36,537 bases of DNA from a virus. The position numbers and the translations under genes were made by a program. Under the pieces are notes generated by a model that searched no databases, had not been told where the DNA came from, and was given only the letters and a program-made list of their open reading frames with translations. Shown here in pieces: positions 18,005 through 36,537 of the stretch (position 1 is its first letter; each line of letters opens with the position of its first letter). The stretch lies in IMG/VR virus record IMGVR_UViG_3300009488_000040, positions 1-36,537 of that record, one strand, 5' to 3'.

Positions 18005-19216
18005 ATGACTATGAAATTTGGCGAGTTTCTAAAGAATGTTTTTGAATACTCTAAAGGCAGCACTGACGCATCCAAAGCCTTAGAGGGCTATAGAGCTAAG
18101 ACCACCGGATACTTAGAGGAGGATCAAGGCTCGATGGGTGGGTTTACAGTGCCGGAGGAGACGTACAAAAGCATCATGGATCTCGCTTTGGAGAATAGTA
18201 TAGTCAGACCCCGCGCAACGATTGTGCAGATGGAGAGCAATGTGATCGGTATCTCCAGAATCGTAGATACTACACATGCGTCAAGTGTGCTGGGAGGCGT
18301 CACTGTAACGTGGACAAACGAAGGCGACGCTATGAGCGAAAGCAACCCGGCACTCGGGCAGCTAGTTTTAAGAGCGAAGGGACTGAAGGGACTCTGCTAC
18401 ACCTCCAGCGAATGGCTGGAGGATTCGGGAGTTCCACCGGAGGATCTGCTGAGACAAGCCTTTGGTCAGGCCATTGGCTTCTATGCAGATGACGAGTACA
18501 TTAACGGAACTGGGGTCACGAGGCCGCTGGGTATTCTAAACAGCGGTGCGCTGATCCCTGTGACCAGAGCCGGAACCGCCTTAGCGTGGGGAGACATAGT
18601 GAATATGGACGCCAGGCTGCTCCCCAGGTCGGAGAAGAAGGCAATCTGGGTCATGAACTCGGAGGCAAAGCCCAGTATCTATGGGCTGTCACCGGGTTCC
18701 GGCTGGGTTTCTGAAGGGAAGATACTCAACAAGGACTATGAAATCTCTGAAAAGCTGCCAAGCTGGGGTCATTCCGGCGACGTTCTTCTGGCAGATTTCA
18801 GTGAGTATTGCATAGGAGACAGGGACTTGATTATCCAGGCGTCCAGCGCGTATGCGTTTGCCACTGATAATATCGCCTGGAAGTTCATATTGAGGACTGA
18901 CGGAGCGCCAATTCCGGCGGCTCCGGTGACACCCAAGAACGGGTCAAGAACGCAGTCGCCGTTCATAATTTTGAGCGGTGGAGTGAGTTCTTCATCCGGC
19001 AGCGAATCTTCAAGCTCGACAAGTGAGAGTTCGTATTCGCTGAGTTCGTCATCGAGCAGTTCGTCAACATCTTCGAGCTCCTCCTCCTCGTCGTCATCCA
19101 GTTCTTCGGAATCGGTTTCAAGTTCCTCCTCATCGAGTTCAGAATCGGTGTCGAGTTCTAGCAGCTCGTCCTCCAGCTCTTCAAGCTCGTCTTCAAGTTC
19201 TAGCGCAGGGGCATGA
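18005..19216 (+). CDS. Major capsid protein 2: HK97-fold paralog without delta domain, with serine-rich tail
   Basis: The ATG at 18005 follows GGGGG by 8 nt (an in-frame GTG at 17996 overlaps that site), giving 403 residues. From residue 32 it is clearly homologous to capsid 1: KTTGYLEEDQGSMGGFTV, IVDTTHASSVLGGVTVTWTNEG, YTSSEWLEDSGVPPEDLLRQAFGQAIGFYADDEYINGTGVTRPLGILN. Only about 31 residues precede the homology, so the roughly 140-residue scaffolding domain of capsid 1 is missing. The C-terminus (327-399) is a tract with 62 serines in 73 residues, then AGA. It may co-assemble with capsid 1, or form vertices as gp24 does in phage T4, and display serine tails outward. Location and stoichiometry are inference. 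Confidence 0.9.
   Translation: MTMKFGEFLKNVFEYSKGSTDASKALEGYRAKTTGYLEEDQGSMGGFTVPEETYKSIMDLALENSIVRPRATIVQMESNVIGISRIVDTTHASSVLGGVTVTWTNEGDAMSESNPALGQLVLRAKGLKGLCYTSSEWLEDSGVPPEDLLRQAFGQAIGFYADDEYINGTGVTRPLGILNSGALIPVTRAGTALAWGDIVNMDARLLPRSEKKAIWVMNSEAKPSIYGLSPGSGWVSEGKILNKDYEISEKLPSWGHSGDVLLADFSEYCIGDRDLIIQASSAYAFATDNIAWKFILRTDGAPIPAAPVTPKNGSRTQSPFIILSGGVSSSSGSESSSSTSESSYSLSSSSSSSSTSSSSSSSSSSSSSESVSSSSSSSSESVSSSSSSSSSSSSSSSSSSAGA
18986..19204 (+). repeat. Serine-rich tail tract of capsid 2
   Basis: There are 73 codons, 62 of them serine, broken by Gly, Thr, Tyr, Leu and by Glu-Ser-Val units (SESVSSSS occurs twice). All six serine codons are mixed without a short DNA period, so selection acts on the amino acid sequence. 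The long acidic frame on the opposite strand is its shadow. Confidence 0.9.
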
Positions 19217-19238
19217 TACACAAATGAGGTGAAATACA

Positions 19239-19685
19239 ATGCCAAACAACAGGTTCAAGGAAAGAAGCAACGCACATGATGCCGTAACGACCTACGCGAT
19301 TGCAACTGCCGCACTGGGCGGAGAGAGTAGCGATGTCCTGAAACCCGCCGGGTTCTACGACATGGAGAACTACGACGCTATCCTGGGTCAGTGCGTCGCC
19401 AGTAACGTCGTCAATACCCATGTCCTGACCCTTACCATGTGGGAGGCTACAGATACCGATGGCGGGGGTTCACAGACCATAACCGGACGTACTGCGGTTT
19501 ATACTTCGTCGCAGGTAACTGATGTGTTTGCTCAGACCATCGAAGTGGATGCCGATATGCTGACCGACGGATATGACTACGTTGGAATGCAGGCGTCAAC
19601 GGATGATGCTGATGGGACAGAGGCTGTGACTTTGAGTTTGATCCCGACCTTTGGGAGATACCCGCAGGCCAGTCCTGTAGCATAA
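19239..19685 (+). CDS. Probable virion protein, 148 aa
   Basis: The gene follows capsid 2 and starts in a context (GAGGTGAAATACAATGCCA) almost identical to that of capsid 1, which implies strong expression. The product is acidic and strand-rich (NVVNTHVLTLTMWEATDTDGG, DVFAQTIEVDADMLTDGYDYVGMQAS), ending LIPTFGRYPQASPVA. A beta-sandwich head decoration or stabilising protein is a reasonable guess from position and expression signals, but no family is recognised. Confidence 0.6.
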   Translation: MPNNRFKERSNAHDAVTTYAIATAALGGESSDVLKPAGFYDMENYDAILGQCVASNVVNTHVLTLTMWEATDTDGGGSQTITGRTAVYTSSQVTDVFAQTIEVDADMLTDGYDYVGMQASTDDADGTEAVTLSLIPTFGRYPQASPVA

Positions 19686-19759
19686 GGAGATTGGGCGGCT
19701 GGTGGGACTGTCCAGTTCCATCTCCACCAGTCGCTCATCATTACACAGGGGGAATGAGT

Positions 19760-19948
19760 ATGAAAGACAAAGTGGAAGCCGCCAAAGACGATGAGATATG
19801 TCCTGTCTGCAACCGCGGCGAATTGACTGAGACTAAGTCGTGTATGCTCTGTGGCTGGACTATGATACTGGGGTTTCCAATGACAATGGAGGCGTACGCT
19901 AAACTTGTAGACGAAGACGCCTCTAACACCAGGGGGAATGGGGAATGA
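19760..19948 (+). CDS. Small zinc-ribbon protein, 62 aa
   Basis: GGGGGAATGA (19748-19757) precedes the ATG at 19760. Two CxxC knuckles, EICPVCNRGELT and KSCMLCGWTM, define a rubredoxin-like zinc ribbon. The C-terminal helix ends TRGNGE, encoded by a doubled repeat (GGGGGAATGGGGAATGA). It is probably a cargo protein that binds nucleic acid or another protein; there is no evidence for a structural role. Confidence 0.65.
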   Translation: MKDKVEAAKDDEICPVCNRGELTETKSCMLCGWTMILGFPMTMEAYAKLVDEDASNTRGNGE

Positions 19949-20322
19949 GATACAGAGTATATCACGGCGGAGAGATGATATATCCCGAAGCCCACGAAGG
20001 CTATGCGGTATATCAAGACGGCAAGGTTGTAAAAACAAAAACAGTGGCTAGTGGAAGGGTATATATAGATGGGGTTGCGAAGGGCGCGTTCACGATGCTT
20101 TCCCTGGACAAGAAGGACAAGAATGGCAAAGAAATCTTCATCGACGACATTCTCAAAGCAGAGGGCGAGAAAAAGTTGATCCATCTGGAGTCAATGGGAA
20201 GCATGGATGTGTCAATAACTTATAGCGGTATTTACTTGGGTGCGTTTGAGTCAAGCGAGCTTGAGGTCGTTGGCAACATCTATGAAAATCCTGAACTCAG
20301 AGAGGGGGCTGGAAGAGTATGA
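19945..20322 (+). CDS. YopX-like protein
   Basis: The 125-residue protein overlaps the previous stop as ATGA. The second half carries the YopX signature: LDKKDKNGKEIFIDDILKAEG, then the C-terminal VVGNIYENPEL. YopX proteins are beta-rich, common in phages of Firmicutes and others, and of unknown function. The N-terminal half (MRYRVYHGGEMIYPEAHEGYAVYQDGKVV) is an additional strand-rich segment. It ends against the first glycosyltransferase gene (ATGA overlap). Confidence 0.75.
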   Translation: MRYRVYHGGEMIYPEAHEGYAVYQDGKVVKTKTVASGRVYIDGVAKGAFTMLSLDKKDKNGKEIFIDDILKAEGEKKLIHLESMGSMDVSITYSGIYLGAFESSELEVVGNIYENPELREGAGRV

Positions 20323-21512
20323 ATTTACTCTGGCTCTCAGCCACTCCTGAATGCCACTCAGGATATGGCAACGCTACCAGGCACATGATTAGCTGGCTCA
20401 CAAAGCAGGGGCATTGGGTAGCTGCTGCAACGAAACATCCGGTTTCTATCAGATGGCGGATGTGGAACGTTCCAGGGACGGACAAACAGAGGCCGATACT
20501 GGCAGGGACTAACGTAAAAGTCATCAATAATGACATAATGGACAAATGGAAGCTCGACTGCTGTATAAGCATGTATGACGTATGGGCACTAAAGACTCCC
20601 ATCCATCGGCACATCCCCTGGATACCCATAGACACTCAGAACGTGAGTGAGAAGATCGTCAAGGTTGTGAAGGATACGCCCATGCAGATCGCCATGACTA
20701 AGCATGGGAAGAGGGAACTTGAGGCTAACGGCCTGTCTCCAGAATATGCTCCCATCGGCTTTGACCCTGAAGTATTCCATCCTAAGCCGGACAAGGCGCA
20801 GGAGTTCAGAGAGACACTTCTCTGGAAAGACGGCCTGAAGCCTGACGACATGTTTCTGATAGGATCGGTCGGCTTGAACTATCCAGACGACCGGAAGGGG
20901 TTTGTGATTCTCTTGCAGGCGTTCAGGGAATTCAGAAAGAAACACCCGGAGGCGCGGCTGTTCCTGCACACCCAGGCTCGTAAGGATCAGGGCACCAACT
21001 ACGCAAAGATTGCTCAAGAGCTTGGGGTCATGGACTACATCGGCTGGCCAGACCAGGCTCAGTTTTGGCTGGGCCAATACACCGCAGAAACTTTAGCCAG
21101 TATGTATTCAGGGATGGACGTGTTCTGTCTCCCAACGAGAGGCGAAGGATTTGGAATGCCTGTTGTGGAGGCTCAGGCGTGCGGAACTCCAGTCGTGGTG
21201 ACTGAGAACACCAGCGGGCCGGAACTCACAAGAAGTGGATGCCTGATCCATACTGATAGTGATGACTATGTATATACAGGCCTCAACACATGGCGGGTGC
21301 AGCCCAAGCCCAGTTCTGTAGTTCGGAGTTTGGCTCATGTGCGCTCGTTGACATGGATAGGGATGCGAAAGGAAATCTCCGCCGGTGTTCAGGAATACGC
21401 ATGGCCTAACGTCTGGGAGAATCACTGGGATCCAATCATTAAGAAGATCGAGGGAATGCTGCCAATAGAGGGGGAAAGCAATGGCAACAGTAGCGACGAC
21501 GAAGAAGTTTAG
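20319..21512 (+). CDS. GT4-like glycosyltransferase (GT-B fold)
   Basis: The protein has 397 residues and a typical two-Rossmann GT-B architecture. The N-terminal acceptor domain has the Gly-rich opening SGYGNATRHMISWLTKQGH. The C-terminal donor domain has IGSVGLNYPDDRKGFVILLQAF, then LASMYSGMDVFCLPTRGEGFGMPVVEAQACGTPVVVTENTSGPEL, which contains the EGFGMPVVEA (E-x7-E) nucleotide-sugar motif of GT4. It should transfer a sugar from a nucleotide donor to an acceptor in the host cytoplasm. It lies among virion genes, 1.1 kb after the serine-tailed capsid, so virion protein is a likely acceptor; host surface glycan or lipid are alternatives. The last 31 bases overlap the next gene. Confidence 0.88.
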   Translation: MNLLWLSATPECHSGYGNATRHMISWLTKQGHWVAAATKHPVSIRWRMWNVPGTDKQRPILAGTNVKVINNDIMDKWKLDCCISMYDVWALKTPIHRHIPWIPIDTQNVSEKIVKVVKDTPMQIAMTKHGKRELEANGLSPEYAPIGFDPEVFHPKPDKAQEFRETLLWKDGLKPDDMFLIGSVGLNYPDDRKGFVILLQAFREFRKKHPEARLFLHTQARKDQGTNYAKIAQELGVMDYIGWPDQAQFWLGQYTAETLASMYSGMDVFCLPTRGEGFGMPVVEAQACGTPVVVTENTSGPELTRSGCLIHTDSDDYVYTGLNTWRVQPKPSSVVRSLAHVRSLTWIGMRKEISAGVQEYAWPNVWENHWDPIIKKIEGMLPIEGESNGNSSDDEEV

Positions 21513-21789
21513 AATCAGAATGATAACGCCGTGGACTGGAATGATAGACGGCGTGGAGCGAACAGTGAGAGCCGGGGAAGAGGTTGACGTTGATATAGAC
21601 ACCTTCCGTGCCCTGGTCTTCATACATGGGAAAGCTGAGGCGGTAACTGTGGATGAGATCGTGGCGGACGCTAAGAAACCAAAGAAACCGAAGAAGTCCA
21701 AAGGGACAACAGCAAGCACTATTAAGGGCAGACGCACGCCCGATAAAGACAAGATGCTGAAGACTTCAACGCAGAAATCGGGGGAATAA
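21481..21789 (+). CDS. Hypothetical protein with lysine-rich C-terminus, 102 aa
   Basis: GGGGGAAA (21470 onward) provides the ribosome site for the ATG at 21481. Residues 1-65 form a strand-rich domain (KKFRIRMITPWTGMIDGVERTVRAGEEVDVD), of a kind seen in small head or tail proteins. Residues 66-102 are lysine- and threonine-rich (AKKPKKPKKSKGTTASTIKGRR), probably disordered and able to bind DNA. The product ends KSGE-stop at a TAA copy of the repeat. The function is not recognised. Confidence 0.6.
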   Translation: MATVATTKKFRIRMITPWTGMIDGVERTVRAGEEVDVDIDTFRALVFIHGKAEAVTVDEIVADAKKPKKPKKSKGTTASTIKGRRTPDKDKMLKTSTQKSGE

Positions 21790-22332
21790 GTGTGGCGGCG
21801 AATAGCCGTCATTCAGCGCGCTGAACTGTGGCAGGGAGAAGAAATTCCCCCATCCCTGCCGCTTATGGTGATGATAATGGCATTCACTCACAACATAATC
21901 GAAGTCAGGCCGTATCTGGATTCGTGGCTTGTTAATATCGAGATCACAGATACAGACACAGGCCGGATATACAATCGCCGATTTAATAGTGATCATAATC
22001 CATCTGCGCCAGAACAGGAAGCCTTTGCCGCTGTTGCAAAATTGCGAATACAGGCAGGGTTGGATTACGAAGCTAACGACCTGAATCTGACCTCTAATGA
22101 GGATGTTTTGCTCGAATACTATCGCGGAATCAAGACTGATGTTATTCTACGAATCCGGGAATATCCAGGAGCTAACCTGCAACAAGCCGCTGATTATATC
22201 TCAGGTAAGTATCCAACCTCTCCGCTCAACTTTACCGAATTATACAACCGGTGGCTTACTATAACAGACTCAGCAAGCTGGTCAGAGTTCAAGCAGTTCT
22301 GCATCAATCATAAATTCCAGGGAATCGACTAA
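21790..22332 (+). CDS. Hypothetical protein, 150-180 aa (start uncertain)
   Basis: The longest reading begins with GTG at 21790, 4 nt after GGGGGA. An ATG at 21880 (MAFTHNIIEVRPYLDSWLVN) is an equally plausible start, because bases 21790-21867 are unusually rich in inverted repeats. The body is alpha-beta with NIEITDTDTGRIYNRRFN and several helices, and it ends SEFKQFCINHKFQGID. No family is recognised. It is coupled to the beta-helix gene by a TAATG overlap and may be its partner or chaperone. Confidence 0.5.
   Translation: MWRRIAVIQRAELWQGEEIPPSLPLMVMIMAFTHNIIEVRPYLDSWLVNIEITDTDTGRIYNRRFNSDHNPSAPEQEAFAAVAKLRIQAGLDYEANDLNLTSNEDVLLEYYRGIKTDVILRIREYPGANLQQAADYISGKYPTSPLNFTELYNRWLTITDSASWSEFKQFCINHKFQGID
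21830..21860 (+). promoter_or_regulatory. Hairpin whose loop is complementary to the upstream ribosome site
   Basis: GGCAGGGA (21830-21837) pairs perfectly with TCCCTGCC (21853-21860). In the 15-nt loop, ATTCCCCC (21844-21851) is the exact complement of GGGGGAAT (21780-21787), the junction repeat ahead of the GTG start. This could pair over about 60 nt to limit initiation at 21790. TTCCCCC occurs elsewhere by chance, so support is modest. Confidence 0.4.
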
Positions 22333-23807
22333 TGGCTGACAGATACATCGACAATACAAAAGAATCAGGGACATTGACAGGCGCAAACTGGCAGTGTACC
22401 AATGGCTCTACTACGGTAACAGAAAGCGGTGCCGCTGGTAATGCTCTGGCGGAATTGTCAGCAGGCGACTATTTCCGTACTACTGGCGGGACTCAGTGGT
22501 ATAAAGTTGCATCTGTCACCGATAATGATAACTTTGAGATAGCTATAAACTTCCAGCAAGGCACAGTGACTGCGGCCGGTAAATTTAACAATGAGGACGG
22601 GTCAGCAGTTGGCCAGGAGTTTCCACATCTGAATGCCGCCACAACAGATGAGGTACGATCTGCTGGTGATATTGTTCGTGTACGCGGTGGCCAAACTCAT
22701 GTATACGCCGGCATAGATATTACATTTGATGAGAAAGCAACAGTCAACAATTATATTGAAGTGAGAGGTATTTATACGGCGGCTGGGGATGATAGCTGGG
22801 GAGATGGCGATACTACGAAACCTAGTATAGATTTCGATAACACAGCTTTTCAAATATTGGTAAATAACGATTATTACTGGAAATTCCTGAATCTTGATAT
22901 AAAGCAGTCTACTGATGCATTAGGTGCTATATACTTTAGTGCTGGAATGGGGGGCATAGTTGATAATTGCGATATTCACGATAATGGTAGTTCGGGGCTA
23001 AGAAGTTTCAATACGCCTATCCAGATATTAAACAGCACCTTTATGGATAATATAAGTCAGAACTTAATTGCGTCGAATTCGATTGCGATAATCAGGAACT
23101 GCACTTTTAACGGCGGCGCTGGCGGAACAACAATTGGATTGCTTTTGATAAGCACCATTGCGACAATCGTCGATTCTACGTTTGGAGTGACGACAGAACA
23201 TAGCTCTGGTGATATTTCATTAGGTCTAGGAGGTTGTCAGATTGCGGGTCGAAATGTAATCTTAGGGTCTACGGCGCAGGTAATTGGTCAGACTATAAAA
23301 GGTCAACAATTAAATTACGTCAGGATAGAAGACGACTCTCAAACCCATTTGGCATTTCAAGCGTGGTATTTCACAGGCAATGTTATCAGAACGACAGCGG
23401 TGGAGCGAAGCGGGGAGGGCGGAACCGACTGGTCAATATTGGGCGAACCGAACTCGAACTGCGGTAGCGAGCAACCTCTGTATATTATGGGTGATTGGAT
23501 TCGTGGCATGCCTATCTATCTGGATGGCACAGAGCAGACGATTACGGTATATGCCTATGCCGATTCAACTGGCGGTGGATGGACGCCAAATGCTAGTGAA
23601 TTCCGTATCGAGGTAGAGCATTATGAAGGCGCTGCTGATTGGGAGCTTGACGTATCTACAGATACTTTTGCCGCAGAAGATCAGTGGGAAGCCTTCTCCA
23701 TAACGTTGACACCAGGAGCAGCTGGGCCGGCATATCTGAGAGCAGTATTGAATGATTATGCAGCAGGTGGAAAGGTATATGTTGACCCGACACCGATTTT
23801 GAGTTAG
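22332..23807 (+). CDS. Parallel beta-helix (pectate-lyase-like) virion protein
   Basis: In this 491-residue protein, residues about 90-330 show the irregular repeats of a right-handed beta-helix: DIVRVRGGQTHVYAGIDITF, YWKFLNLDIKQS, GGIVDNCDIHDNGSSGLRS, IQILNSTFMDNIS, IAIIRNCTFNGG. Asn/Cys ladders and short turns fit the pectin-lyase fold of phage tailspikes and head fibres. The C-terminal 110 residues (YIMGDWIRGMPIYLDGTEQTITVYAY onward) look like a beta-sandwich, possibly carbohydrate binding. The position between capsid and connector genes is unusual for a tailspike and fits a head fibre or a surface decoration acting on glycans. No catalytic residues could be assigned. Confidence 0.75.
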   Translation: MADRYIDNTKESGTLTGANWQCTNGSTTVTESGAAGNALAELSAGDYFRTTGGTQWYKVASVTDNDNFEIAINFQQGTVTAAGKFNNEDGSAVGQEFPHLNAATTDEVRSAGDIVRVRGGQTHVYAGIDITFDEKATVNNYIEVRGIYTAAGDDSWGDGDTTKPSIDFDNTAFQILVNNDYYWKFLNLDIKQSTDALGAIYFSAGMGGIVDNCDIHDNGSSGLRSFNTPIQILNSTFMDNISQNLIASNSIAIIRNCTFNGGAGGTTIGLLLISTIATIVDSTFGVTTEHSSGDISLGLGGCQIAGRNVILGSTAQVIGQTIKGQQLNYVRIEDDSQTHLAFQAWYFTGNVIRTTAVERSGEGGTDWSILGEPNSNCGSEQPLYIMGDWIRGMPIYLDGTEQTITVYAYADSTGGGWTPNASEFRIEVEHYEGAADWELDVSTDTFAAEDQWEAFSITLTPGAAGPAYLRAVLNDYAAGGKVYVDPTPILS

Positions 23808-23815
23808 GATACGCA

Positions 23816-24205
23816 ATGGCAGTGACAGGCACAGTGATCGTAACTATAGACGGAGCATGGGTCGGCTTTGGGGTGCGGATTATAACCGATGTAGACGGTG
23901 TTGATGCCGCCTGGGAATCCGTGTCTTCCTCTAGTTCGTCAAGTTCGGAATCGGTGTCCTCGTCATCGAGTAGCCTTTCAAGCTCCTCATCATCTTCTGA
24001 GTCAGTATCTTCTTCCTCGTCTTCAAGCTCCAGTAGCCTCTCAGAATCGTCTTCATCTTTCGTCCCCTTATTACGCATTACTATTTTCCTTCTGGGAGAC
24101 AAGCATATAATCAAAAGCAGGGCTGATAAGCATATAATTACCAGCATGTCAGACAAGCACAAAATAACGAGGGCGCACAGGGTGGCCTTGCCCATAGCCG
24201 CATAA
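23816..24205 (+). CDS. Small protein with serine-rich middle and DKH repeats, 129 aa
   Basis: There are three parts. Residues 1-36 form a beta-rich start (MAVTGTVIVTIDGAWVGFGV). Residues 37-81 are serine-rich, with the same SESVSSSS units as capsid 2. Then comes a hydrophobic stretch, FVPLLRITIFLLG, and three 9-residue repeats (DKHIIKSRA, DKHIITSMS, DKHKITRAH). Unlike the other serine tracts in this window it is not C-terminal, so the part after it may be a late addition or frame-shifted extension. It follows the beta-helix gene by 8 bp and may anchor or extend that protein. No family is recognised. Confidence 0.55.
   Translation: MAVTGTVIVTIDGAWVGFGVRIITDVDGVDAAWESVSSSSSSSSESVSSSSSSLSSSSSSSESVSSSSSSSSSSLSESSSSFVPLLRITIFLLGDKHIIKSRADKHIITSMSDKHKITRAHRVALPIAA
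24098..24178 (+). repeat. Three tandem 27-bp repeats
   Basis: Units at 24098-24124, 24125-24151 and 24152-24178 each begin GAYAAGCAYA and encode DKH-initiated nonapeptides. The first two are closest; the third has diverged. They lie in frame at the end of the serine-rich gene. Confidence 0.75.
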
Positions 24206-24216
24206 AGGGATGGATT

Positions 24217-24528
24217 ATGCCCAGAAAAATAATAAAGAACAAAAAGAAGTATTCCAGGTTATTGATCACCGAAGAGGATGGCGAGAACATCACCGTCAGT
24301 AGCCCACTCATGGACGTGGTGAACTCTACGGGTACTGTGATTCAGGCGGAGGCAGCGGCATCTCTTGACGACAACGGGACTGCGGCTGTGACCATATATG
24401 GGCTGGTAGACACAACGCCGGCGACTTTCATTGATGGGGAATGGGTGAAGGCCAGGTTTACTTTCACAATAGGGGATGAGGTTCTGGGTGGGGTTGACCC
24501 CATAGAGATTGGAGAGGTGAAATTATGA
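24217..24528 (+). CDS. Hypothetical structural protein, 103 aa
   Basis: AAGGGATGG precedes the ATG at 24217. After a basic N-terminus (MPRKIIKNKKKYSRLLI) the sequence is strand-rich with an Ig-like or beta-sandwich feel: VSSPLMDVVNSTGTVIQAEAAASLDDNGTAAVTIYGL, then WVKARFTFTIGDEVL. It overlaps the head-tail connector gene and could be a small fibre or adaptor component. No firm family. Confidence 0.5.
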   Translation: MPRKIIKNKKKYSRLLITEEDGENITVSSPLMDVVNSTGTVIQAEAAASLDDNGTAAVTIYGLVDTTPATFIDGEWVKARFTFTIGDEVLGGVDPIEIGEVKL

Positions 24529-25397: not shown

Positions 25398-25409
25398 GGG
25401 GAATGCTTT

Positions 25410-25604: not shown

Positions 25605-25606
25605 TC

Positions 25607-26565: not shown

Positions 26566-26574
26566 GAGTTGGGC

Positions 26575-26760: not shown

Positions 26761-26762
26761 AA

Positions 26763-27197: not shown

Positions 27198-27208
27198 GGG
27201 GAATGAAA

Positions 27209-27433
27209 ATGTCAACGGTATTGACCATTGAGGATGTAAGAAAGGCATTGGATAGTCTTATTGAAAAAAAACAGACCTTCGTGACTCCAAGACAGATGCT
27301 CTCTTTGTCTGGAATCACCTTCACAGATGAGCAATGGGAAAAACTGCAAAGTGACTGGCCAGATATGATGAAGGATGCCTGGGAGAGGGGGAAAGAAGAT
27401 GACGCTCGCAGCAGCAATGATGGTCAGGAATGA
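27209..27433 (+). CDS. Hypothetical protein, 74 aa
   Basis: The ATG at 27209 is 7 nt past GGGGGA (27197-27202). The product is helical: LTIEDVRKALDSLIEKKQTFVTP and RQMLSLSGITFTDEQWEKLQSDW. Its last 35 bases overlap the glycosyltransferase gene, whose ribosome site (GAGGGGG near 27385) is inside it, so translation of the two is likely coupled. No family is recognised. Confidence 0.5.
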   Translation: MSTVLTIEDVRKALDSLIEKKQTFVTPRQMLSLSGITFTDEQWEKLQSDWPDMMKDAWERGKEDDARSSNDGQE

Positions 27434-28598
27434 GGAGGTCTTACTTCCAGGATGTTTGAAATCCATACTGCCTGTGATCCCGAAAGAGCGGATCGCCGTT
27501 GTGGACACAGGCTCCACGGATAAGACACTTGCAGTGGCGTCAGATTTCGGGGTGAAGCTCTATCATCCCGGAATGGCAGACGTTCACGCGTGGCAGCATG
27601 ACTTCAGCTTCCACCGTAACCAGTCTTTTGATTATGTGTCTGAAATCCCTGGGGTGACTCACATCCTGGTTATAGATGCTGATGAGCGACTGAAGCCGGA
27701 GTCGGCAGGGAGGGTTCCATTCCTGCTGGACTTCATGGACAACAACGACCTCAACTTCGCCATCATGCAGATTGAGAATGAGCTGAGTGACGGCGGTATG
27801 GGTCTCCACATAATGCCCCGCATCTTCAGGAAGGGAACCGTGATCTTTCAGGGAGTGGTCCAGGAACAGCCCATCACAACAGGCAAGGGATATATGTCGA
27901 ATCTCTGTATCTCTCATCTTGGCTATGCGCTGGACGCGGAGGCTATGGATCAGAAGCTGAAAAGGCGGGAGGATCTGTTAAGGATGGCGCTGGACAAAGA
28001 GCCGTGGAACTCGCTTTACAGTCAAAGCCTTATCAAGAATCTGAGAGCGCAAGGGCAGTGGAAAGAATGTGCAAAGCTGGCGGATGAGCTGCTGGCTGGT
28101 GATACAGAGCTATCCCGGGCGCAGGAGCAAAGGGCCTCAGTGGATCGTCTGATAGCAGGAATGGCTACGGAAGACCCGCTGGCCTTCGTTACAGCTAAGA
28201 GGCTGGCAGAACAATTCCCTGAGAATCTGGACATTCAATACTATCTGGGTTCGCTGTGCCTGGATAATGATGATTTGGATGGCGCTATTGAAGCTATCAA
28301 GAGCTATCTTATGATCAGATTCACCATCCAGACCGTAGGGTTGCATGAGCCTCTGGTTCTGAACACATGGGGTTTGCAAGTTCTGGCATTCAATAATCTG
28401 GGGTTTGCTCAATGGAAGAAGGGCGATCTCATAGGCGCGCTGGAGTCTATGTTTTTAGGGAAGAGTTTGAACGGGAACATGGAAGGTCTCAATGAGAACA
28501 TGAGGCAGATAGTTAAGACACTGTTATTCAAAGAAGGGGAGATGCAAAAGTATTTCCCAGAATTGATGGGGGATTCGGGGGAAGAGGGAGTCGATTAA
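27399..28598 (+). CDS. GT2 glycosyltransferase with TPR-like C-terminal domain
   Basis: The protein has 399 residues from the ATG at 27399, 8 nt after GAGAGGGGG. The GT-A catalytic domain (1-200) has MMVRNEEVLLPGCLKSI, VVDTGSTDKTLAVA, the metal-binding DAD in LVIDADERLKPE, and a conserved QHDFSFHRNQSFD segment. This pattern belongs to the TPR-containing GT2 group that includes SunS, which glycosylates a peptide. The C-terminal half is helical repeats (NSLYSQSLIKNLRAQGQWKECAKLADELL, LDIQYYLGSLCLDNDDLDGAIEAIKSYL, NNLGFAQWKKGDLIGALESMF), suited to holding a polypeptide acceptor. It ends 1 bp before the serine-tailed tail tube gene, the strongest positional hint to its substrate. Confidence 0.88.
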   Translation: MTLAAAMMVRNEEVLLPGCLKSILPVIPKERIAVVDTGSTDKTLAVASDFGVKLYHPGMADVHAWQHDFSFHRNQSFDYVSEIPGVTHILVIDADERLKPESAGRVPFLLDFMDNNDLNFAIMQIENELSDGGMGLHIMPRIFRKGTVIFQGVVQEQPITTGKGYMSNLCISHLGYALDAEAMDQKLKRREDLLRMALDKEPWNSLYSQSLIKNLRAQGQWKECAKLADELLAGDTELSRAQEQRASVDRLIAGMATEDPLAFVTAKRLAEQFPENLDIQYYLGSLCLDNDDLDGAIEAIKSYLMIRFTIQTVGLHEPLVLNTWGLQVLAFNNLGFAQWKKGDLIGALESMFLGKSLNGNMEGLNENMRQIVKTLLFKEGEMQKYFPELMGDSGEEGVD

Positions 28599-28599
28599 C

Positions 28600-29028
28600 A
28601 TGGGTGCAGGCGCAAAAGCAGGATACGGAGGCGGCGTCACTCTAAGCGGTCTGACCGTAGGGGTCAAGACCTGGATTATCAATACTGTAAATGAGCCGCT
28701 GGAAACAACCACGCTGGCAGATGGTCAGACCAGAACTTTCATCCCGGGCCTGAATTCGTTTACAGGCTCTTTTGAAGGCAACTGGGATGCATCAAACACT
28801 ATCGCTGTTGGAGATACAGGACAAGCGACGTTCTACCCAGGAGAAGGAACGGCGCTGGCATATACGGGACACATAATCGTCAGTGGTCTGGACATTGAGG
28901 ATGCTCACGACGGAGTGATAAACGGTCCGATCACCTACCAGGGGTCTGGCACGCTGCCAACGCTGAGTAGTAGCTCCAGTTCGTCGACAAGCTCCTCATC
29001 CAGCAGCTCAAGTTCTGCATCAGCATAA
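28600..29028 (+). CDS. Probable major tail tube protein with serine tail
   Basis: The 142-residue protein begins MGAGAKAGYGGGVTLSGLTV. Its beta-rich body (VKTWIINTVNEPLETTTLADGQ, FTGSFEGNWDASNTIAVGDTGQATFY, YTGHIIVSGLDIEDAHDGVINGPITYQGSG) matches the single-domain tail tube fold, where hexamer rings stack along the tape measure. It ends in 16 serines broken by one threonine and then ASA (from 28966). Position just before the tail chaperones and tape measure supports the role. The serine tail would point outward from every tube subunit. Confidence 0.78.
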   Translation: MGAGAKAGYGGGVTLSGLTVGVKTWIINTVNEPLETTTLADGQTRTFIPGLNSFTGSFEGNWDASNTIAVGDTGQATFYPGEGTALAYTGHIIVSGLDIEDAHDGVINGPITYQGSGTLPTLSSSSSSSTSSSSSSSSSASA

Positions 29029-29046
29029 ACTAACGAGGGGGACATC

Positions 29047-29756: not shown

Positions 29757-29757
29757 A

Positions 29758-32217
29758 ATGGCGCTACCGATAGCAGAGGCGTTCGTAGAGATACGAGGAA
29801 GGACTGCGAAATATAGGGCGAAGATTACTCAGGCGAAGCGACAAACGGAAGGTTTTGGAAAGTCGGCAGGCAAGTCGCTGAAGATGGTCACTTTGGGCCT
29901 TGCGGCTCTCGGAGCCGCTGCCGCTGTCACTGCCGCGGTTATCGCTGTCAAGCTCACTAAATCTATTATCCGCTTAGGCTCTCAAGCCCTACAAAGTTTT
30001 GCCCAGCTTCAGCAGGGAATGGCTGAAGTATCGACAATGATCAAAGGCAACTTTGGCCCTGCTCTTACTGCGCTAAGCACTGGGGTAAGAAAATTGTCGC
30101 TGGAGGTTCCTCATGCAACAGAGAGCCTAAGCACCGCCTTATATGATTTGCTATCCGCATCCGTACCTGTATCGGAATCACTGAAGGCGTTAAAAACTTC
30201 TAGTAGGGCGGCAGTAGCGGGTCTGAGTAGTGTTCAAACCGCCGCAAACTTAGGAACAGGCACGGCGAATGCTTTGAATATTGCCTATTCTGATATGGAT
30301 AAGATTTTCGATACTGCCTTTGCAACAGTGAGGATGGGGAAAATTACCTTTGGAGAACTTGCAGGATCATTGGGGCAGGCGCTTGCATCTGCCAAAAAAA
30401 TGAATGCCTCAATTGAGGAAGTCTATGGCTCTATTGCTTTCCTCACAAAAAACACGCTATCTGCGGATACTGCCAGCATCTCTTTTGGGCGAGCATTGGA
30501 TGGATTGGCGGATAAAGCTGATATTTTGGAGGATATGGGCGTTAAGGTTTTTGGTACTGAGGGTCAATATTTAGGAATACTCAAAGTAGTCGAGCAGATA
30601 GCTGAACAAATCAAGGGATTGACTGATCAGGCGAAGGTTAAAATTTTTGAAGAGATGGGATTTGACATTCGAGCTGCACGCGCTATTGTGATCATGTCCG
30701 AAAACGTGGAACAATTTAGAGACACCCTAGACGGGGTGACTGATTCCGCAGGAGACATGGAAATCGCCTATTCTCGCATGGCGGGCACTCTGGTCAATAA
30801 GTGGAAGATACTAAAGAACAGCGTTGCTGAACTTGGCCGAACCATAGTTGAAAGACTGGTAGGTGCTATGGGCACTTTGGTGGATTCCCTCACAATCATA
30901 ATACAGAAACTTTCCATTGTGATTAAGCGTTACAAAGACCACGGACTCGCAGCCGCCACTGTGTTCCGAGAGATAGCGAAAATCGCAGTAAGCACTACCA
31001 TAGAAATGTTCAAGGCTATAATCGAGCTGATAGCATCAGCGGCCAAGATTATGTGGGTGCCCCTGAAGTTCGGTTTTTTGACCGCGATGCGTGACATATC
31101 AGATAGTGCCGAAAAGACGATAATTGATGTTGTCAACTTTTTCAGACGCGGCGGCGACGAGATTGCCAAGTTGCAAAAACGAACTGTGGACACCAATCGC
31201 TTTACCTGGGATATGATTCGTAAGCAGCAAGAGAAAGCTGAATTTTCGTTGGTATTTGCAAAAGAATCGAAGAAGATACAAAAAACCGCGACGGAAGCAT
31301 TTGGTGTATTGATGGCTAATATCAAACAATCCATTTCAGTATTGGATGATTTTATCAAAACAACTGGCGGTGCCGAGGATGCGGTAGCAGAGATGGGGAA
31401 GGAAATGGCAGAGGTTGCGGAGCCGGAACGAATCAAAGCAATCAAAACTGAGTTTTCCGCCTGGGGCTTTGTCATTGATAACAATATAAAATTCCTGAAG
31501 CGTTTTGGTCGTGAAGCCAAAGTTGTTGCAAAAGATACCGGCCTGGCTTTCAGCCTCATTCCGCAGCAGATGGATATGGCCAAAATGATACTTGAACTCA
31601 ATAGAAGCAAGAAAGCCATCGAGGAATTCAAAGAAAAGGCGAAAGACACCGCTGATGCTATCAAGCCCGCTTTTGAGAACATGTTTGTCGGCCTGTTCAG
31701 TGGAAAGACGAAAGACCTGTGGACTCAGTTCTGGGATGACCTGAAGCAAATAGCAATCAGAAAACTGGCGGAGGTAGCCGCGACGAAGATATTCGAGAAA
31801 ATTATAAATGCTATTGCCAAAGAAAAGGAAGTGGCCACGACAGGCGGGGCGGTGAAGTCGGGAGTGAAGACGGGCGTTGGTGCAGGGATAGGGGCGTGGA
31901 TTGGTAGCTTGATCGCTCCGGGCGTGGGTACAGCCATTGGAGCCAATATCGGCGCAAACATTGGGGGCAGCTTTGCTGAGGGTGGAATAGTTCGCAAACC
32001 TACACTTGCTATGATTGGAGAGCGCGGCCCGGAAGCAATAATACCTCTAAACAGAGCGCAGCCATCCAGCATGGGTCGTCCTATTATCTTTAGCGGGAAC
32101 ATAGTTTTCAATGAGACGGACTTTGCAAACATGGACAGAACCAGGCTGGAGAAAGCAGTTAGACAACAGATTATGCCCATAATTCAGCAGGCGGCGGCGG
32201 ACGGGATTGGCGGATGA
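29758..32217 (+). CDS. Tail tape measure protein
   Basis: The 819-residue protein sets tail length; at about 1.5 angstrom per residue it implies a tail near 120 nm. The N-terminal region matches TP901-type tape measures: RAKITQAKRQTEGFGKSAGKSLK, a hydrophobic helix (GLAALGAAAAVTAAVIAVKL), then the conserved core VPHATESLSTALYDLLSASVP, SADTASISFGRALDGLADKADILEDMGVKVFG, MSENVEQFRDTLDGVTDSAGDMEIAYSRMAGTLVNKWKILKNSVAELG. More hydrophobic helices occur near 400-450. A glycine-rich membrane-active stretch (GVGAGIGAWIGSLIAPGVGTAIGANIGANIGG) lies near the end, followed by the common GERGPEAIIPL motif. It is probably ejected to help DNA cross the envelope. Confidence 0.93.
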   Translation: MALPIAEAFVEIRGRTAKYRAKITQAKRQTEGFGKSAGKSLKMVTLGLAALGAAAAVTAAVIAVKLTKSIIRLGSQALQSFAQLQQGMAEVSTMIKGNFGPALTALSTGVRKLSLEVPHATESLSTALYDLLSASVPVSESLKALKTSSRAAVAGLSSVQTAANLGTGTANALNIAYSDMDKIFDTAFATVRMGKITFGELAGSLGQALASAKKMNASIEEVYGSIAFLTKNTLSADTASISFGRALDGLADKADILEDMGVKVFGTEGQYLGILKVVEQIAEQIKGLTDQAKVKIFEEMGFDIRAARAIVIMSENVEQFRDTLDGVTDSAGDMEIAYSRMAGTLVNKWKILKNSVAELGRTIVERLVGAMGTLVDSLTIIIQKLSIVIKRYKDHGLAAATVFREIAKIAVSTTIEMFKAIIELIASAAKIMWVPLKFGFLTAMRDISDSAEKTIIDVVNFFRRGGDEIAKLQKRTVDTNRFTWDMIRKQQEKAEFSLVFAKESKKIQKTATEAFGVLMANIKQSISVLDDFIKTTGGAEDAVAEMGKEMAEVAEPERIKAIKTEFSAWGFVIDNNIKFLKRFGREAKVVAKDTGLAFSLIPQQMDMAKMILELNRSKKAIEEFKEKAKDTADAIKPAFENMFVGLFSGKTKDLWTQFWDDLKQIAIRKLAEVAATKIFEKIINAIAKEKEVATTGGAVKSGVKTGVGAGIGAWIGSLIAPGVGTAIGANIGANIGGSFAEGGIVRKPTLAMIGERGPEAIIPLNRAQPSSMGRPIIFSGNIVFNETDFANMDRTRLEKAVRQQIMPIIQQAAADGIGG

Positions 32218-33356
32218 ATGAGAACACCTTCAGACAGAATATCATCAAATCCGGGGTTAATATAAGGCGGAAGTTCGTTTACGATGGGTCTGATTATACA
32301 GACCTGCTTTTGAAAGATGGCATCGGTACTATCCGGCGCGACGTGAATCTCTCCGCAGGCACAGCCACAGTAGCTCTGGATAATTCTCGCAACACATGGA
32401 ACTTCCTGTGGGCTAGCGACACAGCCATAGGCGATTCGGTACAAATACAAGTATACATTGAAGACGATCCCGCCAATATCCTCACTTTATTTAATGGCAA
32501 GCTTGAGCGCGTGCAGTTTGATAAGGCTACTGTCATCTTGACGATACGCGATAAAGCCGGCGACTGGCTGGACAAGAAAATGGGGAGCAACCAGTCCCCC
32601 GCGAACTATCATGCAATGACCTGGAACGCCGATGATATGGTTTGGGATATTCTTCGAGACCACGCAGGGCTTGATGGCACCCCAAATCCCAGCAATCCTG
32701 ATATAGATTACACGTCATTTGCGGCGTGGCGCGATCAACACATCAGAGTGAAGGAATATACAATTCAGGCAAAACCAACAGGTCATACAATCAGCACGAT
32801 CCTGATGCTGATATGTCAGCATACCCATTCCTATATCTGGGTCAACAAGGATGGGAAAGTGGCCTTCGCTCCGCCATATCAACCTGGGTATATATATGAC
32901 GAAGGAAACACTAAAGGCGGCAGGAATCTATTGATCACCAGGGATAGAATTATAAACGCGACAAAAGTCATGTATGCTTACAGCTACACGGATGGTGACT
33001 GGGTATTTTTTACGCCGCCGGCAGGCATTGACAACTATCAAGTCGATCAAGTCAGTATTGACAGGTTTGGAGAGTTCAAGTTGATGGTGGAAAATAGGGT
33101 TGTTAGCCACATCGGGAGTAGTGGAGCAGGCGCACGAAATGACCGCGACGATACGCTTGCGGAATATGCTTATCCCCAGAAGTATTTTGAGATTAAGACC
33201 GGCCCTCCCGGAATCATGGAGGATGTGTGCAATCGAATCACGGTGAATGATTCGGTGAAACAGATCGTTGAGGCCGAACCCAAGATTGAGGAAATCAGCT
33301 ACAGTCTAAACCCCGGCGACTTTGGCGTTACTCTGAAAGCGAGGTGGGATTGGTAA
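32214..33356 (+). CDS. Distal tail / baseplate hub protein
   Basis: The 380-residue protein overlaps the tape measure stop as ATGA. The first part is strand-rich (IRRKFVYDGSDYTDLLL, GIGTIRRDVNLSAGTATVALDNS, GDSVQIQVYIEDD, LFNGKLERVQFDKATVILTIRDKAGDWLDKKMG), and a domain with WDILRDHAGLD and LICQHTHSYIWVNKDGKVAF follows. This is the pattern of gp27/gpD-like hub proteins: a Dit-type beta domain, then an insertion related to phage tail hubs. It would cap the tail tip. The assignment is by order and fold pattern, without a decisive motif. Confidence 0.62.
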   Translation: MNENTFRQNIIKSGVNIRRKFVYDGSDYTDLLLKDGIGTIRRDVNLSAGTATVALDNSRNTWNFLWASDTAIGDSVQIQVYIEDDPANILTLFNGKLERVQFDKATVILTIRDKAGDWLDKKMGSNQSPANYHAMTWNADDMVWDILRDHAGLDGTPNPSNPDIDYTSFAAWRDQHIRVKEYTIQAKPTGHTISTILMLICQHTHSYIWVNKDGKVAFAPPYQPGYIYDEGNTKGGRNLLITRDRIINATKVMYAYSYTDGDWVFFTPPAGIDNYQVDQVSIDRFGEFKLMVENRVVSHIGSSGAGARNDRDDTLAEYAYPQKYFEIKTGPPGIMEDVCNRITVNDSVKQIVEAEPKIEEISYSLNPGDFGVTLKARWDW

Positions 33357-33757
33357 TGCCGGAAAGAATGCAGCTCACAGATGGTGTGGATACGATAACC
33401 TTCTCGCCTTTAGTCTCCCCAGAATACGACCGCGACGACTCGCGATACAGGGGCGGTTTTGAGCCGGACAGTGGCGACATCCAGCTTTACGATCTGGGCG
33501 GGGCGCAGCGGCATAATCTGGCACTCAACGACCTATCAAAAGCTGATGCCGACCAGCTTAATCTGTGGTGGAGAAATATGACAAGATTGAGCTTCAAATC
33601 AGATCTCACAGGCGCACCGGGAACCGCAATACAGGTCAGAATACAGGGTACGCAAGCGCCTTTCCAGATGGACTTCCCTACAGGCTTTCAGGGAAGATAT
33701 GAAGGCGCTTTAACAATCCACGAAGTTAGCTCGTCAAGCTCCTCAAGCGGAGCGTAG
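33356..33757 (+). CDS. Distal tail protein with short serine tail, 133 aa
   Basis: The ATG at 33356 overlaps the TAA of the hub gene. The compact beta-rich body (DGVDTITFSPLVSPEYDRDD, RYRGGFEPDSGDIQLYDLGGAQ, ALTIHEV) ends in seven serines and GA (33728-33754). The tract is the same type as in capsid 2 and the tail tube, only shorter. Position after the hub suggests a tail tip or tube-associated subunit. The gene stops at TAG fused to an exact junction repeat, after which the methyltransferase cluster begins. Confidence 0.68.
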   Translation: MPERMQLTDGVDTITFSPLVSPEYDRDDSRYRGGFEPDSGDIQLYDLGGAQRHNLALNDLSKADADQLNLWWRNMTRLSFKSDLTGAPGTAIQVRIQGTQAPFQMDFPTGFQGRYEGALTIHEVSSSSSSSGA

Positions 33758-33769
33758 GGGGAATGAAAA

Positions 33770-34390
33770 ATGCCAGAGACTTTAGATCCTATTGATTACG
33801 AAGATATACTCAAAAGCTGCGGGGGAAGGCTGTCTATCAATGACGCCAGGATACTCTACAACACCGCCATAGAAATTGACGCTCAGAACATCGTTGAGAT
33901 TGGCTCTATGGATGGATGCTCCTCAATGGTGTTTGGCTATGTCTGCAAGCAAACTGGCGGACATCTCTACTGCTTAGAACCAAACCCCAGGACGAGATGG
34001 AAGGGAAACATGGACAGGCTGGGTCTTGCTGATTATGCCACTACTCTCATGAAGGCCTCTCCCTGGGTAATCCCGACAGATGTGAAATTGCCCATTGACT
34101 ATCTGCTGATTGACGGCGACCATCGGACCAGGTGGACGCTGGTGGATTATCACTACTGGGAGCCTTATGTGCGCCCGGGTGGACTGATTGCCTTCCACGA
34201 CTGGACGGGCGCTAACGGTGTGGGAGAGTGGGTACAAAGAGCCGTTGGGATCATCCTGGAGACTGATGAGCTTCAGGAAGTGGTCAGAAATGCCAGCAAG
34301 GACAGGGGCATTATAGTCTTCCGTAAGCCTATGGAGATTCTTGACCCCAAAGGCAGGAACGTCCCCAGCTTCTCCAGGAGGATGCAATGA
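33770..34390 (+). CDS. SAM-dependent methyltransferase, class I
   Basis: The 206-residue Rossmann methyltransferase is like the Methyltransf_24 / cephalosporin-hydroxylase group. Motif I is IVEIGSMDGCSSMVFGYV, the acidic strand is LYCLEPNP, and DYLLIDGDHRTRWTLVDYHYWEPYVRPGGLIAFHDW is the characteristic IDGxH...PGG...HD block. The acceptor is unknown; sugar O-methylation fits the neighbouring glycosyltransferases. Ribosome site is the repeat at 33757. It is coupled to the next gene by ATGA. Confidence 0.85.
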   Translation: MPETLDPIDYEDILKSCGGRLSINDARILYNTAIEIDAQNIVEIGSMDGCSSMVFGYVCKQTGGHLYCLEPNPRTRWKGNMDRLGLADYATTLMKASPWVIPTDVKLPIDYLLIDGDHRTRWTLVDYHYWEPYVRPGGLIAFHDWTGANGVGEWVQRAVGIILETDELQEVVRNASKDRGIIVFRKPMEILDPKGRNVPSFSRRMQ

Positions 34391-34932
34391 GAGCCATATC
34401 ATTCATATTGGACATTAAGAAAGAGGTGGGGGATAAGCCGCTGGTGGGCGTTGAGATAGGCGTCTATCGCGGCGAACATGCAGAACTGATGCTTCAGCAT
34501 CTGAATATACAAAGGCTCTATCTCATTGATCCATACGTGGATAACGATTCGGACTTTGAGGGGCACATGAAATCCAGCGTTCCGGCAGCGAAGGCGATAG
34601 CCAGGAAGCGATTGGAGCAGCCAGAGCCGTATGAGCAAATCATCTGGATAGAAAAGAAGTCGGAGGATGCTCTCCGGGAAGTTTGCCTTGCGCTGGACTT
34701 CGTATACATTGATGGGAACCACAGCTACAAGTATGTGATGCGGGATATGATATATTATGGACGAATGGTCAAAAGAGGCGGCTGGATCGGGGGTCATGAT
34801 TACATGATGCGCCGCAGCCCGCGTGTAGAGGTGAAGCAGGCTGTTGATGATTATGTTGTTCTGGCTATGACAAAAGGTCACGAGCTTCACGTTGGGGAGG
34901 GCAAGTTCCCAGACTGGTGGTTTAGAAAATGA
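34387..34932 (+). CDS. Second SAM-dependent methyltransferase
   Basis: The protein has 181 residues, with the same fold class but clearly different sequence from the preceding one: motif I LVGVEIGVYRGEHAELML, acidic strand LYLIDPYVD, then LDFVYIDGNHSYKYVMRDMIYYGRMVKRGGWIGGHDYMM. The IDGNH and GGHDY elements place it in the class I group often found in glycan-modification clusters. Both ends overlap neighbours, so three genes are translated as a unit. Confidence 0.85.
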   Translation: MRAISFILDIKKEVGDKPLVGVEIGVYRGEHAELMLQHLNIQRLYLIDPYVDNDSDFEGHMKSSVPAAKAIARKRLEQPEPYEQIIWIEKKSEDALREVCLALDFVYIDGNHSYKYVMRDMIYYGRMVKRGGWIGGHDYMMRRSPRVEVKQAVDDYVVLAMTKGHELHVGEGKFPDWWFRK

Positions 34933-35915
34933 GAATCCTATTCATCAGCGACCCGCTATTTACGGAGAGTGCGATCTATAACGAAGAGGGGTACGCGAAT
35001 CTTCCCATGCTCCAGTCTATGCCATGCGATCTTCTCGTGGCTACTACGGCAGATCAGGCGCGCCAGAGTATAGATAGCGCGGACGTTGTTCTGCTGGAGG
35101 CCATGCGCGGTGTCGCTTTCCGGGATGAGCTGAGCTTCATCAACAAGAGCAATGCCTTTGTGGGCGCTTTCTACTGTGACGTATGGCGCGCACCGTTCTG
35201 GTATCAGTCTGAGATTAGCATAGACCTCAACATCTGCGTCTACCGGAAAGGGGCGTTAAGGGTTCATACTTCGTGGACTGAAGGCGCAAACTTTCTGTGG
35301 CTGCCTCCCAGGGTGAAAACTGTTGACTACGTTGAGAAGCGCGATGTTGATATAGTAACCTGGGGAGCTATGGGTCGCGAGTATCCTTTCAGGAACTTCG
35401 CATACCAGGCATTGCTTCAGCAGTTGATAGGCGGTCCGCGCAGGAATGCCCAGCCTTTGAAGCTGGAACCAGGGTTGACTGAGAACACCATCCAGATCCG
35501 GAGCGAGAAGTATAAATGGCACAGCATAACTGGGAAGAGATTGCAGGGGCCTTTCTACGGCTCTAAGCTCATGGCCGCATTAAGCAGGTGTAAAGTCTGT
35601 CCTACTGGCCCGGTCCTTCAAAACGGTGTAGGGTCTGTGGTGGCTCGCTTCTTTGAGAATGCTGCTGCTGGGCTGGTATCTATCACTTCGCAAATGGACG
35701 ACGCTGACGCTCTCGGCTTCAAGCATGGGGAGAATATATGGTTCTCCAGCGGGGAGCGATTCTTCAGCGACCTTGATAGGCTTTTATTTGTGGATACGGA
35801 TCTGCGCTATGCAATATCAGAGAGTGCCCATCAGCTAATATCGGACAGGCACTCAGTTGAGGTGCGGGCGCTGGAGTTATACAACGCTCTGAAAGAGAAA
35901 ACGGGAGGAATATAA
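34929..35915 (+). CDS. Glycosyltransferase, GT-B type (CgeB-like)
   Basis: The protein has 328 residues. The N-terminal Rossmann-like part has MRILFISDPLFTESA and ADVVLLEAMRG. The C-terminal part has the diagnostic end of CgeB-type or Glyco_trans_1_2 enzymes: YGSKLMAALSRCKVCPTGPVLQNGVGSVVARFFENAAAGLVSITSQMDDADALGFKHGENIWF. There the FENAAAG segment and the following acidic loop bind the nucleotide sugar. It should add a sugar to an acceptor in the host cytoplasm. It belongs to the methyltransferase-glycosyltransferase operon immediately after the serine-tailed tail protein. Confidence 0.8.
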   Translation: MRILFISDPLFTESAIYNEEGYANLPMLQSMPCDLLVATTADQARQSIDSADVVLLEAMRGVAFRDELSFINKSNAFVGAFYCDVWRAPFWYQSEISIDLNICVYRKGALRVHTSWTEGANFLWLPPRVKTVDYVEKRDVDIVTWGAMGREYPFRNFAYQALLQQLIGGPRRNAQPLKLEPGLTENTIQIRSEKYKWHSITGKRLQGPFYGSKLMAALSRCKVCPTGPVLQNGVGSVVARFFENAAAGLVSITSQMDDADALGFKHGENIWFSSGERFFSDLDRLLFVDTDLRYAISESAHQLISDRHSVEVRALELYNALKEKTGGI

Positions 35916-36537
35916 TGGACGTATGCTTTTTCACTATGAGCAACAGCGAGATGCTGACGTGGGCACGTCGGCTGGTTTCATCCGGCGACATTGTAGATCG
36001 GCCAGTGTGGTTCTACAGAATACCGCCAGACCATCCAGATCCAAAGCGATACAAGCTGGATCTGCTGGCCGGGGATCTGTTGCCGCAAGCTGATAAGTAC
36101 GTCTACGTTGACGCTGACTGCATCTTCCAGAATCATGGAAAATGGGAGACTGACGAGTGGACGGGGGCAAAGCATGAGTCCTGGGACCCGCCCAACAGGT
36201 ATTCAGGAGCGTTCCCTGGTAAAGAGGGGTGGACGGACTTCGTTGAGATGTATAATAATTACGTTGAGGTCAATGGCGATTTTCCCCGTCTCAATTCCGG
36301 GGTCATTGCTATTCCAGCAGATATACGGAAAGATCTCGCTCACAGATGGTCGGAATGGAATGAGCTATTTGACGGACTGACAACGCAGAGAATCAAAGTC
36401 AGGGATCAGATTGGCTTTGGCTTTGCCGCCCACGAGTTTGGCATTGGCGCACTCCCTGACGGCATTGTGGGAGTACCCAAGCGGGAGGTCGTTGATGAGA
36501 GCTATTCACTTATCCACGCATCCGGCAGGCCAAACCC
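35915..36537 (+). CDS. Glycosyltransferase, GT-A type with DAD motif (partial, runs off the window)
   Basis: The ATG at 35915 overlaps the TAA of the previous gene, with GGGAGGA upstream. The 207 visible codons stay open to the window edge. The product begins MDVCFFTMSNSEMLTWARRL and contains KYVYVDADCIF (D66-A-D68), the metal and nucleotide-sugar site of GT-A enzymes. Then come RLNSGVIAIPADI, the GT8-type acceptor-side motif, and RDQIGFGFAAHEFGI. The GT8-like label rests on these two blocks. The rest of the cluster lies beyond 36537. Confidence 0.78.
   Translation, partial: MDVCFFTMSNSEMLTWARRLVSSGDIVDRPVWFYRIPPDHPDPKRYKLDLLAGDLLPQADKYVYVDADCIFQNHGKWETDEWTGAKHESWDPPNRYSGAFPGKEGWTDFVEMYNNYVEVNGDFPRLNSGVIAIPADIRKDLAHRWSEWNELFDGLTTQRIKVRDQIGFGFAAHEFGIGALPDGIVGVPKREVVDESYSLIHASGRPN

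Follow-up and report, generated by a model that had tools for sequence, protein, structure and literature searches.

What are long serine tails doing on the head and tail proteins of a phage? The IMG/VR virus record IMGVR_UViG_3300009488_000040, hereafter the window (the whole stretch of DNA analysed, 36,537 nt), raises this question, as its late genes encode virion proteins with polyserine (poly-Ser) tails and, among them, glycosyltransferases (GTs) and methyltransferases (MTs). Few isolates are known in which a phage glycosylates its virion, and the sites that accept the glycans seem to differ from case to case. The best reading of the evidence presented here, to which we assign a probability of about 0.6, is that phage enzymes glycosylate the poly-Ser tails. 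The pairing of tails with sugar and methyl enzymes across otherwise different uncultured lineages suggests that the tails are sugar-coated scaffolds. A megablast comparison with 50,697 phage records (INPHARED) gave no match to the window itself, and queries of IMG/VR with its capsid and adaptor were unproductive.

Serine tracts in the late operon

Positions 16599-36537 of the window form a single plus-strand late operon. Its head part comprises two HK97-type capsid genes, a GT4 gene, a beta-helix protein, a serine-tract protein, a head-tail adaptor and a terminator, followed by GT2-TPR, the tail tube, the tape measure, the distal tail protein, two MTs, a GT and a possible GT. Four genes of this operon bear serine tracts, three strictly C-terminal and one internal, as an earlier sequence-only reading of this DNA had described. 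The tail of capsid 2 contains 62 serines and finishes ...SSSSAGA, the tube protein has the C-terminus TLSSSSSSSTSSSSSSSSSASA (finishing SASA) and the distal tail protein ends in EVSSSSSSSGA (seven serines, then GA). In the small protein encoded at 23816-24205, the tract covers approximately residues 34-81 of 129 and is followed by 48 non-serine residues. At the end of this protein a short motif is repeated three times, as DKH throughout in the window (24100-24180) and as DRY/DQY/DQY in the L002 counterpart (290-370); the repeat is absent from the other open reading frames (ORFs) of the loci compared.

Across the plus-strand genes, 7% of residues are serine, and the tracts are therefore far beyond chance. 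Their serine codons (n = 124) include all six, at 15-21% each, a usage like that of the other window genes (chi-square p = 0.16), and adjacent identical serine codons show no excess within tracts. It follows from this six-codon mix in genome proportions that the amino acid is selected, as had been claimed, and expansion of a microsatellite or other DNA repeat was rejected as the origin of the tracts.

Enzymes encoded beside the tails

The interleaving of enzyme and virion genes is as tight as first described: the GT2-TPR gene ends 1 bp before the tube gene, and MT1 begins 12 bp after the distal tail gene, the fourth to bear a tract, with MT1, MT2, the GT and the last ORF overlapping by 1-4 bp. 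Four genes had been called glycosyltransferases. Those at 20319, 27399 and 34929 are upheld by Pfam, whereas the gene at 35915 matched no Pfam or PHROG family, gave a structure model with a pLDDT of 36 and, from its VDAD motif, is a possible GT. No GT9 domain was found in the window by Pfam search.

By sequence, the closest matches to the GT2-TPR protein are glycosyltransferases acting on proteins and peptides, and the substrate of GT2-TPR itself is a prediction. Its PDB matches include GmaR (2e-13) and SunS (9e-8), at ~25% identity over the GT domain, and SunS and ThuS rank first by Foldseek on a low-confidence model; the likeness to SunS proposed from sequence thus extends to the GmaR/SunS/ThuS group of GT2 enzymes. 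GmaR is the flagellin O-GlcNAc transferase of Listeria and SunS is a peptide S-glycosyltransferase. No viral relatives of GT2-TPR were found. This absence, together with a tailed tube in L002 that has no GT2-TPR gene in front of it, rules out GT2-TPR as an obligatory partner of the tails.

Other enzymes of the window do have viral relatives. MT1 is 48% identical to an MT of the Ser-tailed phage G014 and 49% identical to that of L309, MT2 is 40% identical to an MT of the Ser-tailed phage G039, and the GT at 34929 is related to L279:8437-9411 of the Ser-tailed phage G038. In Pontimonas phage phiPsal1 and Microcystis phage Mae-JY09, a homologue of the GT4 is encoded immediately downstream of the capsid.

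Serine tails in other uncultured phages

IMG/VR was scanned with two mixed-codon poly-Ser patterns, followed by an ORF screen that removed antisense frames; a first tail pattern, which matched mostly antisense acidic runs, was dropped. Among the IMG/VR matches listed, at least ~30 further contigs have strict C-terminal poly-Ser tails, so that the tails are not unique to the window. Many of these contigs encode two to five tailed proteins, which by PHROG match or position are decoration-like proteins after the capsid, tube proteins, proteins after the tape measure and, in G015, a capsid. Serine accounts for ~81% and threonine for 2% of the tracts in the tailed proteins collected, and the phages form about six lineages. 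A separate type of tail was seen in T4-like baseplate wedge proteins, whose Ser-rich ends finish GY or GYGGY (L062, L077, L080, L110, L125 and L248; the baseplate proteins of L062 and L077 matched phrog_232 and phrog_219). In L295, the gene at 11820-16577 encodes a protein of 1585 residues whose serine tracts are spread over positions 25-1572, and it overlaps by ~10 bp the next gene, which is GT9-like (748 residues).

Tails often occur on one of two related proteins. The untailed capsid 1 and tailed capsid 2 of the window are 39.6% identical, and G015 likewise has one capsid of each kind; these two pair with each other in the tree (bootstrap 100), and it therefore seems that a capsid duplication leaving one copy tailed took place twice. 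L002 has both a tailed and an untailed tube, G003 and G035 have decoration-like proteins both with and without tails, and tandem copies with unequal tail lengths are present in G014, G043, L134, L234, L257 and G041. From these pairs we infer dosage control of the tailed subunits.

Association of tails with sugar enzymes

Enzyme families were counted at Pfam cut-offs over non-redundant records of about 15 kb or longer and compared by Fisher test. The controls were contigs matched by the same patterns and having no sense-strand serine tract in the locus retrieved, to which the poly-Ser screen was confined; contigs are fragments and the controls were unmatched by host. With the families tested after GT2 picked once gene maps had been viewed for some of the tailed genomes, and p values uncorrected for that choice, heptosyltransferase-like GT9 was found in 5/16 Ser-tailed records and 0/33 controls (p = 0.002), and any of GT2, GT4, GT9, Methyltransf_24 or epimerase in 10/16 and 5/33 (p = 0.002). 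Methyltransf_24 was found in 7/17 Ser-tailed records and 1/42 controls (p = 4e-4), a comparison in which four of the five positive controls, carrying sense poly-Ser proteins, had been set aside after the result was seen (5/50 in all original controls). GT9 was above the cut-off in G014, G025, G039, G044 and G111 and weak in G003.

Sugar clusters adjoin tailed or poly-Ser genes in the window (12 bp), G039, G044, G021, G014 and G111, and gene maps place them beside such genes in G035, G003, G002 and G038 as well. The G003 cluster comprises epimerase, Methyltransf_24, LicD and cytidylyltransferase genes. That of G035 encodes Methyltransf_24 and a nucleotide-sugar set (4,6-dehydratase-like, DegT aminotransferase, FdtA-like and sugar C-methyltransferase), along with a 912-residue protein read as GT9-MT-GT4, for which the Pfam support is weak and covers the GT4 part, via a G021 homologue. 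Proteins of 912-914 residues read as GT9-like, methyltransferase and GT4 fusions are also encoded, with aminotransferase genes alongside, at L274:8669-11407 and L286:3313-6057 of Ser-tailed phages. A related GT9/GT4 family is common to eight poly-Ser records.

The association was also approached from the enzyme side, by searching all viral contigs of IMG/VR with aligned methyltransferases from the window and G014, blind to serine. Besides G014 itself, this search returned two contigs: L309, which was new (49% identical), and L310, a more distant relative (33%) in whose flanks no tails were seen. L309, the only new close match, encodes two C-terminal Ser-tailed proteins, one of them directly after the tape measure and finishing SSSSAGA. 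From a similar tape measure start, L309 seems to belong to the G014 structural lineage, and the informative point is therefore that the window shares its methyltransferase with a lineage sharing little structural sequence.

Genomes that lack tails provide a contrast. The head-module regions of phiPsal1 and Mae-JY09 contained no serine tails, though GTs are present there with further GT2 or MT genes, which shows that GTs occur without tails. A spring podovirus has TPR, FkbM-methyltransferase and GalT-like genes and no tails. Neither serine tracts nor, in the stretches examined, any annotated glycosyltransferase was found in Paracoccus KLEP18-1 and Rhizobium RHph_Y1_10, cultured relatives of the G021/G039/G044 capsid lineage, or in Microcystis Mae-JY22, a cultured relative of the G003/G035 lineage.

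Proposed mechanism and alternative explanations

In the mechanism that we propose, the serine tails would be disordered, exposed on the subunits of head and tail, and would serve as acceptor scaffolds, and phage transferases would attach sugars to many of the serines and then extend them. The window transferase would most likely be the GmaR/SunS-like GT2-TPR, with the head-module GT4 and the GTs encoded after the distal tail gene also taking part. Methyltransf_24 enzymes may then methylate the sugars, yielding a particle glycan coat that could serve in shielding or adsorption. Tandem paralogues, whether tailed and untailed or with unequal tails, would set the number of tailed subunits per capsid or tube. 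The predominance of serine over threonine in the tracts would suit a Ser-specific acceptor; for comparison, the autotransporter heptosyltransferase TibC heptosylates Ser, not Thr, of adhesins (PMC4358343).

Several observations weigh against this reading. As a single family, GT2 was not enriched in Ser-tailed records relative to controls, and the counts are not fully independent because the tailed phages fall into so few lineages. No sugar-enzyme match was found in the tailed contigs G015, G022, G031, G034, G040, G041 and G043, most of which are fragments. The structure models of GT2-TPR and the 35915 protein are both of low confidence. The tailed tube of L002 without a neighbouring GT2-TPR and the T4-like marine phages, whose Ser-rich baseplate ends (...SSSGYGGY) come with no GT2 match, would sit well with unmodified tails that act as flexible spacers or as an entropic brush, the GT and MT genes being separate cargo. 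There is precedent in the polyserine linkers of marine carbohydrate-degrading bacteria, found in Saccharophagus and Teredinibacter enzymes (PMC2386152, PMC2699552). Such linkers connect two domains, whereas three of the four window tracts end their protein and the fourth is followed by the 48-residue end of the 23816 protein. This explanation also leaves aside the association of Methyltransf_24, GT9 and the sugar-gene union with tails, their adjacency and the outcome of the reverse search, and we consider it unlikely.

The sugar genes could instead act on the host surface or on DNA, their co-occurrence with tails arising from shared hosts or inherited gene order. LicD, epimerase and heptosyltransferase-like genes are also found in envelope synthesis, DNA-modifying phage GTs are known (as given in the reference list of PMC12619734), and Ser-tailed phages are confined to few lineages. 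The sugar genes nonetheless lie inside the late structural operon, adjoining tailed genes, and the enzymes are common to phages whose structural genes largely differ, which makes this explanation improbable. It would be more surprising still if the tracts were targets of phosphorylation or acylation, or a biophysical device, for example for phase separation during assembly: serine is also a phosphorylation site and any function of the tails is a prediction, but the enrichment seen was for sugar enzymes, kinase families lying outside the search. Glycosylation of the tails by phage enzymes is accordingly the reading that we prefer. Of the sequence-only interpretation, the core idea is supported by C-terminal poly-Ser virion proteins accompanying glyco-enzyme genes across several structural lineages, by the methyltransferase search leading back to a Ser-tailed phage and by the likeness of GT2-TPR to known enzymes; strict pairing with GT2-TPR and the assignment of 35915 as a GT are not supported.

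Relation to known glycosylation systems

Glycans at capsid and tail tube C-termini have been reported for mycobacteriophages, Che8 and relatives (Freeman 2023, as cited in PMC12619734), and the window phage resembles them in also encoding glycosyltransferases. Unlike Che8, in which the capsid (...VFNKTGS) and tube (...QYSDGS) end with no serine tract, window capsid 2 and tube bear poly-Ser tails. Poly-Ser on several proteins, tailed/untailed paralogue pairs and clusters of MT, GT9, GT4 and nucleotide-sugar genes are further departures from the mycobacteriophage type. The serine-rich repeat glycoproteins of Gram-positive bacteria have a long Ser-rich tract that is O-glycosylated by neighbouring glycosyltransferases (PMC6973325, PMC7948813), and the window tracts likewise adjoin glycosyltransferase genes; those glycoproteins are, however, secreted adhesins with an accessory Sec system, whereas the window tracts are on virion subunits, and the genes of the late operon read as structural and enzyme genes, no search aimed at Sec export or surface anchoring having been made. 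Our analysis indicates that the window system would work like both of these, as a member of neither on this evidence. GT9 heptosyltransferase-like genes enriched in Ser-tailed phages recall TibC and AAH, unlike the window, which lacks GT9; a search for TibC homology of the phage GT9-like genes gave no PDB match. PhiPsal1 and Mae-JY09 share the position of the GT4 gene and differ in lacking the tails.

No description of poly-Ser tails on virion proteins was found in the literature searched, most subscription journals lying outside its coverage, and novelty is therefore provisional: the repeated poly-Ser scaffolds appear new, while glycans at capsid and tube C-termini are already known in mycobacteriophages. 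We see an even chance of a widespread, undescribed route to glycan-coated virions, by which several unrelated uncultured phage lineages repeatedly gained poly-Ser acceptor tails (on capsid, decoration, tube and distal tail proteins), often on one duplicate for dosage, paired with exchangeable GT, MT and nucleotide-sugar modules that glycosylate the serines. Were poly-Ser tails general acceptors, they would offer a sequence signature predicting glycosylated particles straight from metagenomes and a modular peptide tag for glycosylation in vivo, and deletion of a tail or an enzyme from a laboratory phage would put the role of virion glycans (adsorption, shielding, stability) to the test. The repeated occurrence of paralogues with and without tails also points to a general means of controlling the dose of surface features on capsids or tails.

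Features of the window

Table 1. Serine-tailed proteins, enzymes and related features of the window, with the evidence for each.
Feature	Position	Strand	Evidence
Major capsid protein 1, HK97 fold family, no serine tail	16599..17972	+	Pfam Phage_capsid 1e-39; phrog_10 2e-48
Major capsid protein 2, GTG start, C-terminal serine tail	17996..19216	+	Pfam Phage_capsid E 5e-33
Serine tail of capsid 2	18986..19213	+	Sequence
GT4 glycosyltransferase, head module	20319..21512	+	PF13692 1e-17; phrog_2170 1e-37
Small protein, internal serine tract then triple DKH repeat	23816..24205	+	Sequence; counterpart L002 1-378
GT2 glycosyltransferase with TPR repeats, GmaR/SunS-like	27399..28598	+	PF00535 2e-7; TPR matches weak
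Tail tube protein, C-terminal serine tail	28600..29028	+	phrog_1407 (major tail protein) weak, E 1e-4; sits before tape measure gene; body 60% identical in L002
Distal tail protein, C-terminal serine tail	33344..33757	+	By position; no Pfam or PHROG match
S-adenosylmethionine (SAM) methyltransferase MT1 (Methyltransf_24)	33770..34390	+	PF13578 6e-20
SAM methyltransferase MT2 (Methyltransf_24)	34387..34932	+	PF13578 4e-13
GT-B type glycosyltransferase-like protein	34929..35915	+	PF13524 (Glyco_trans_1_2) 4e-9
Possible GT-A glycosyltransferase, cut by contig end	35915..36535	+	VDAD motif only; no family match

Three further genes of the window deserve mention. For the gene at 22332-23807, between the head genes and the serine-tract protein, the match to a right-handed beta-helix family (PF13229 2e-5) is weak and falls below the cut-off. 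In the 843-residue protein encoded at 13920-16451, a prohead protease (Peptidase_S78) is joined to an AAA+ ATPase domain at the C-terminal end, and a DDE transposase (PF01609 6e-12) is encoded at 262-1710, near the left contig end.

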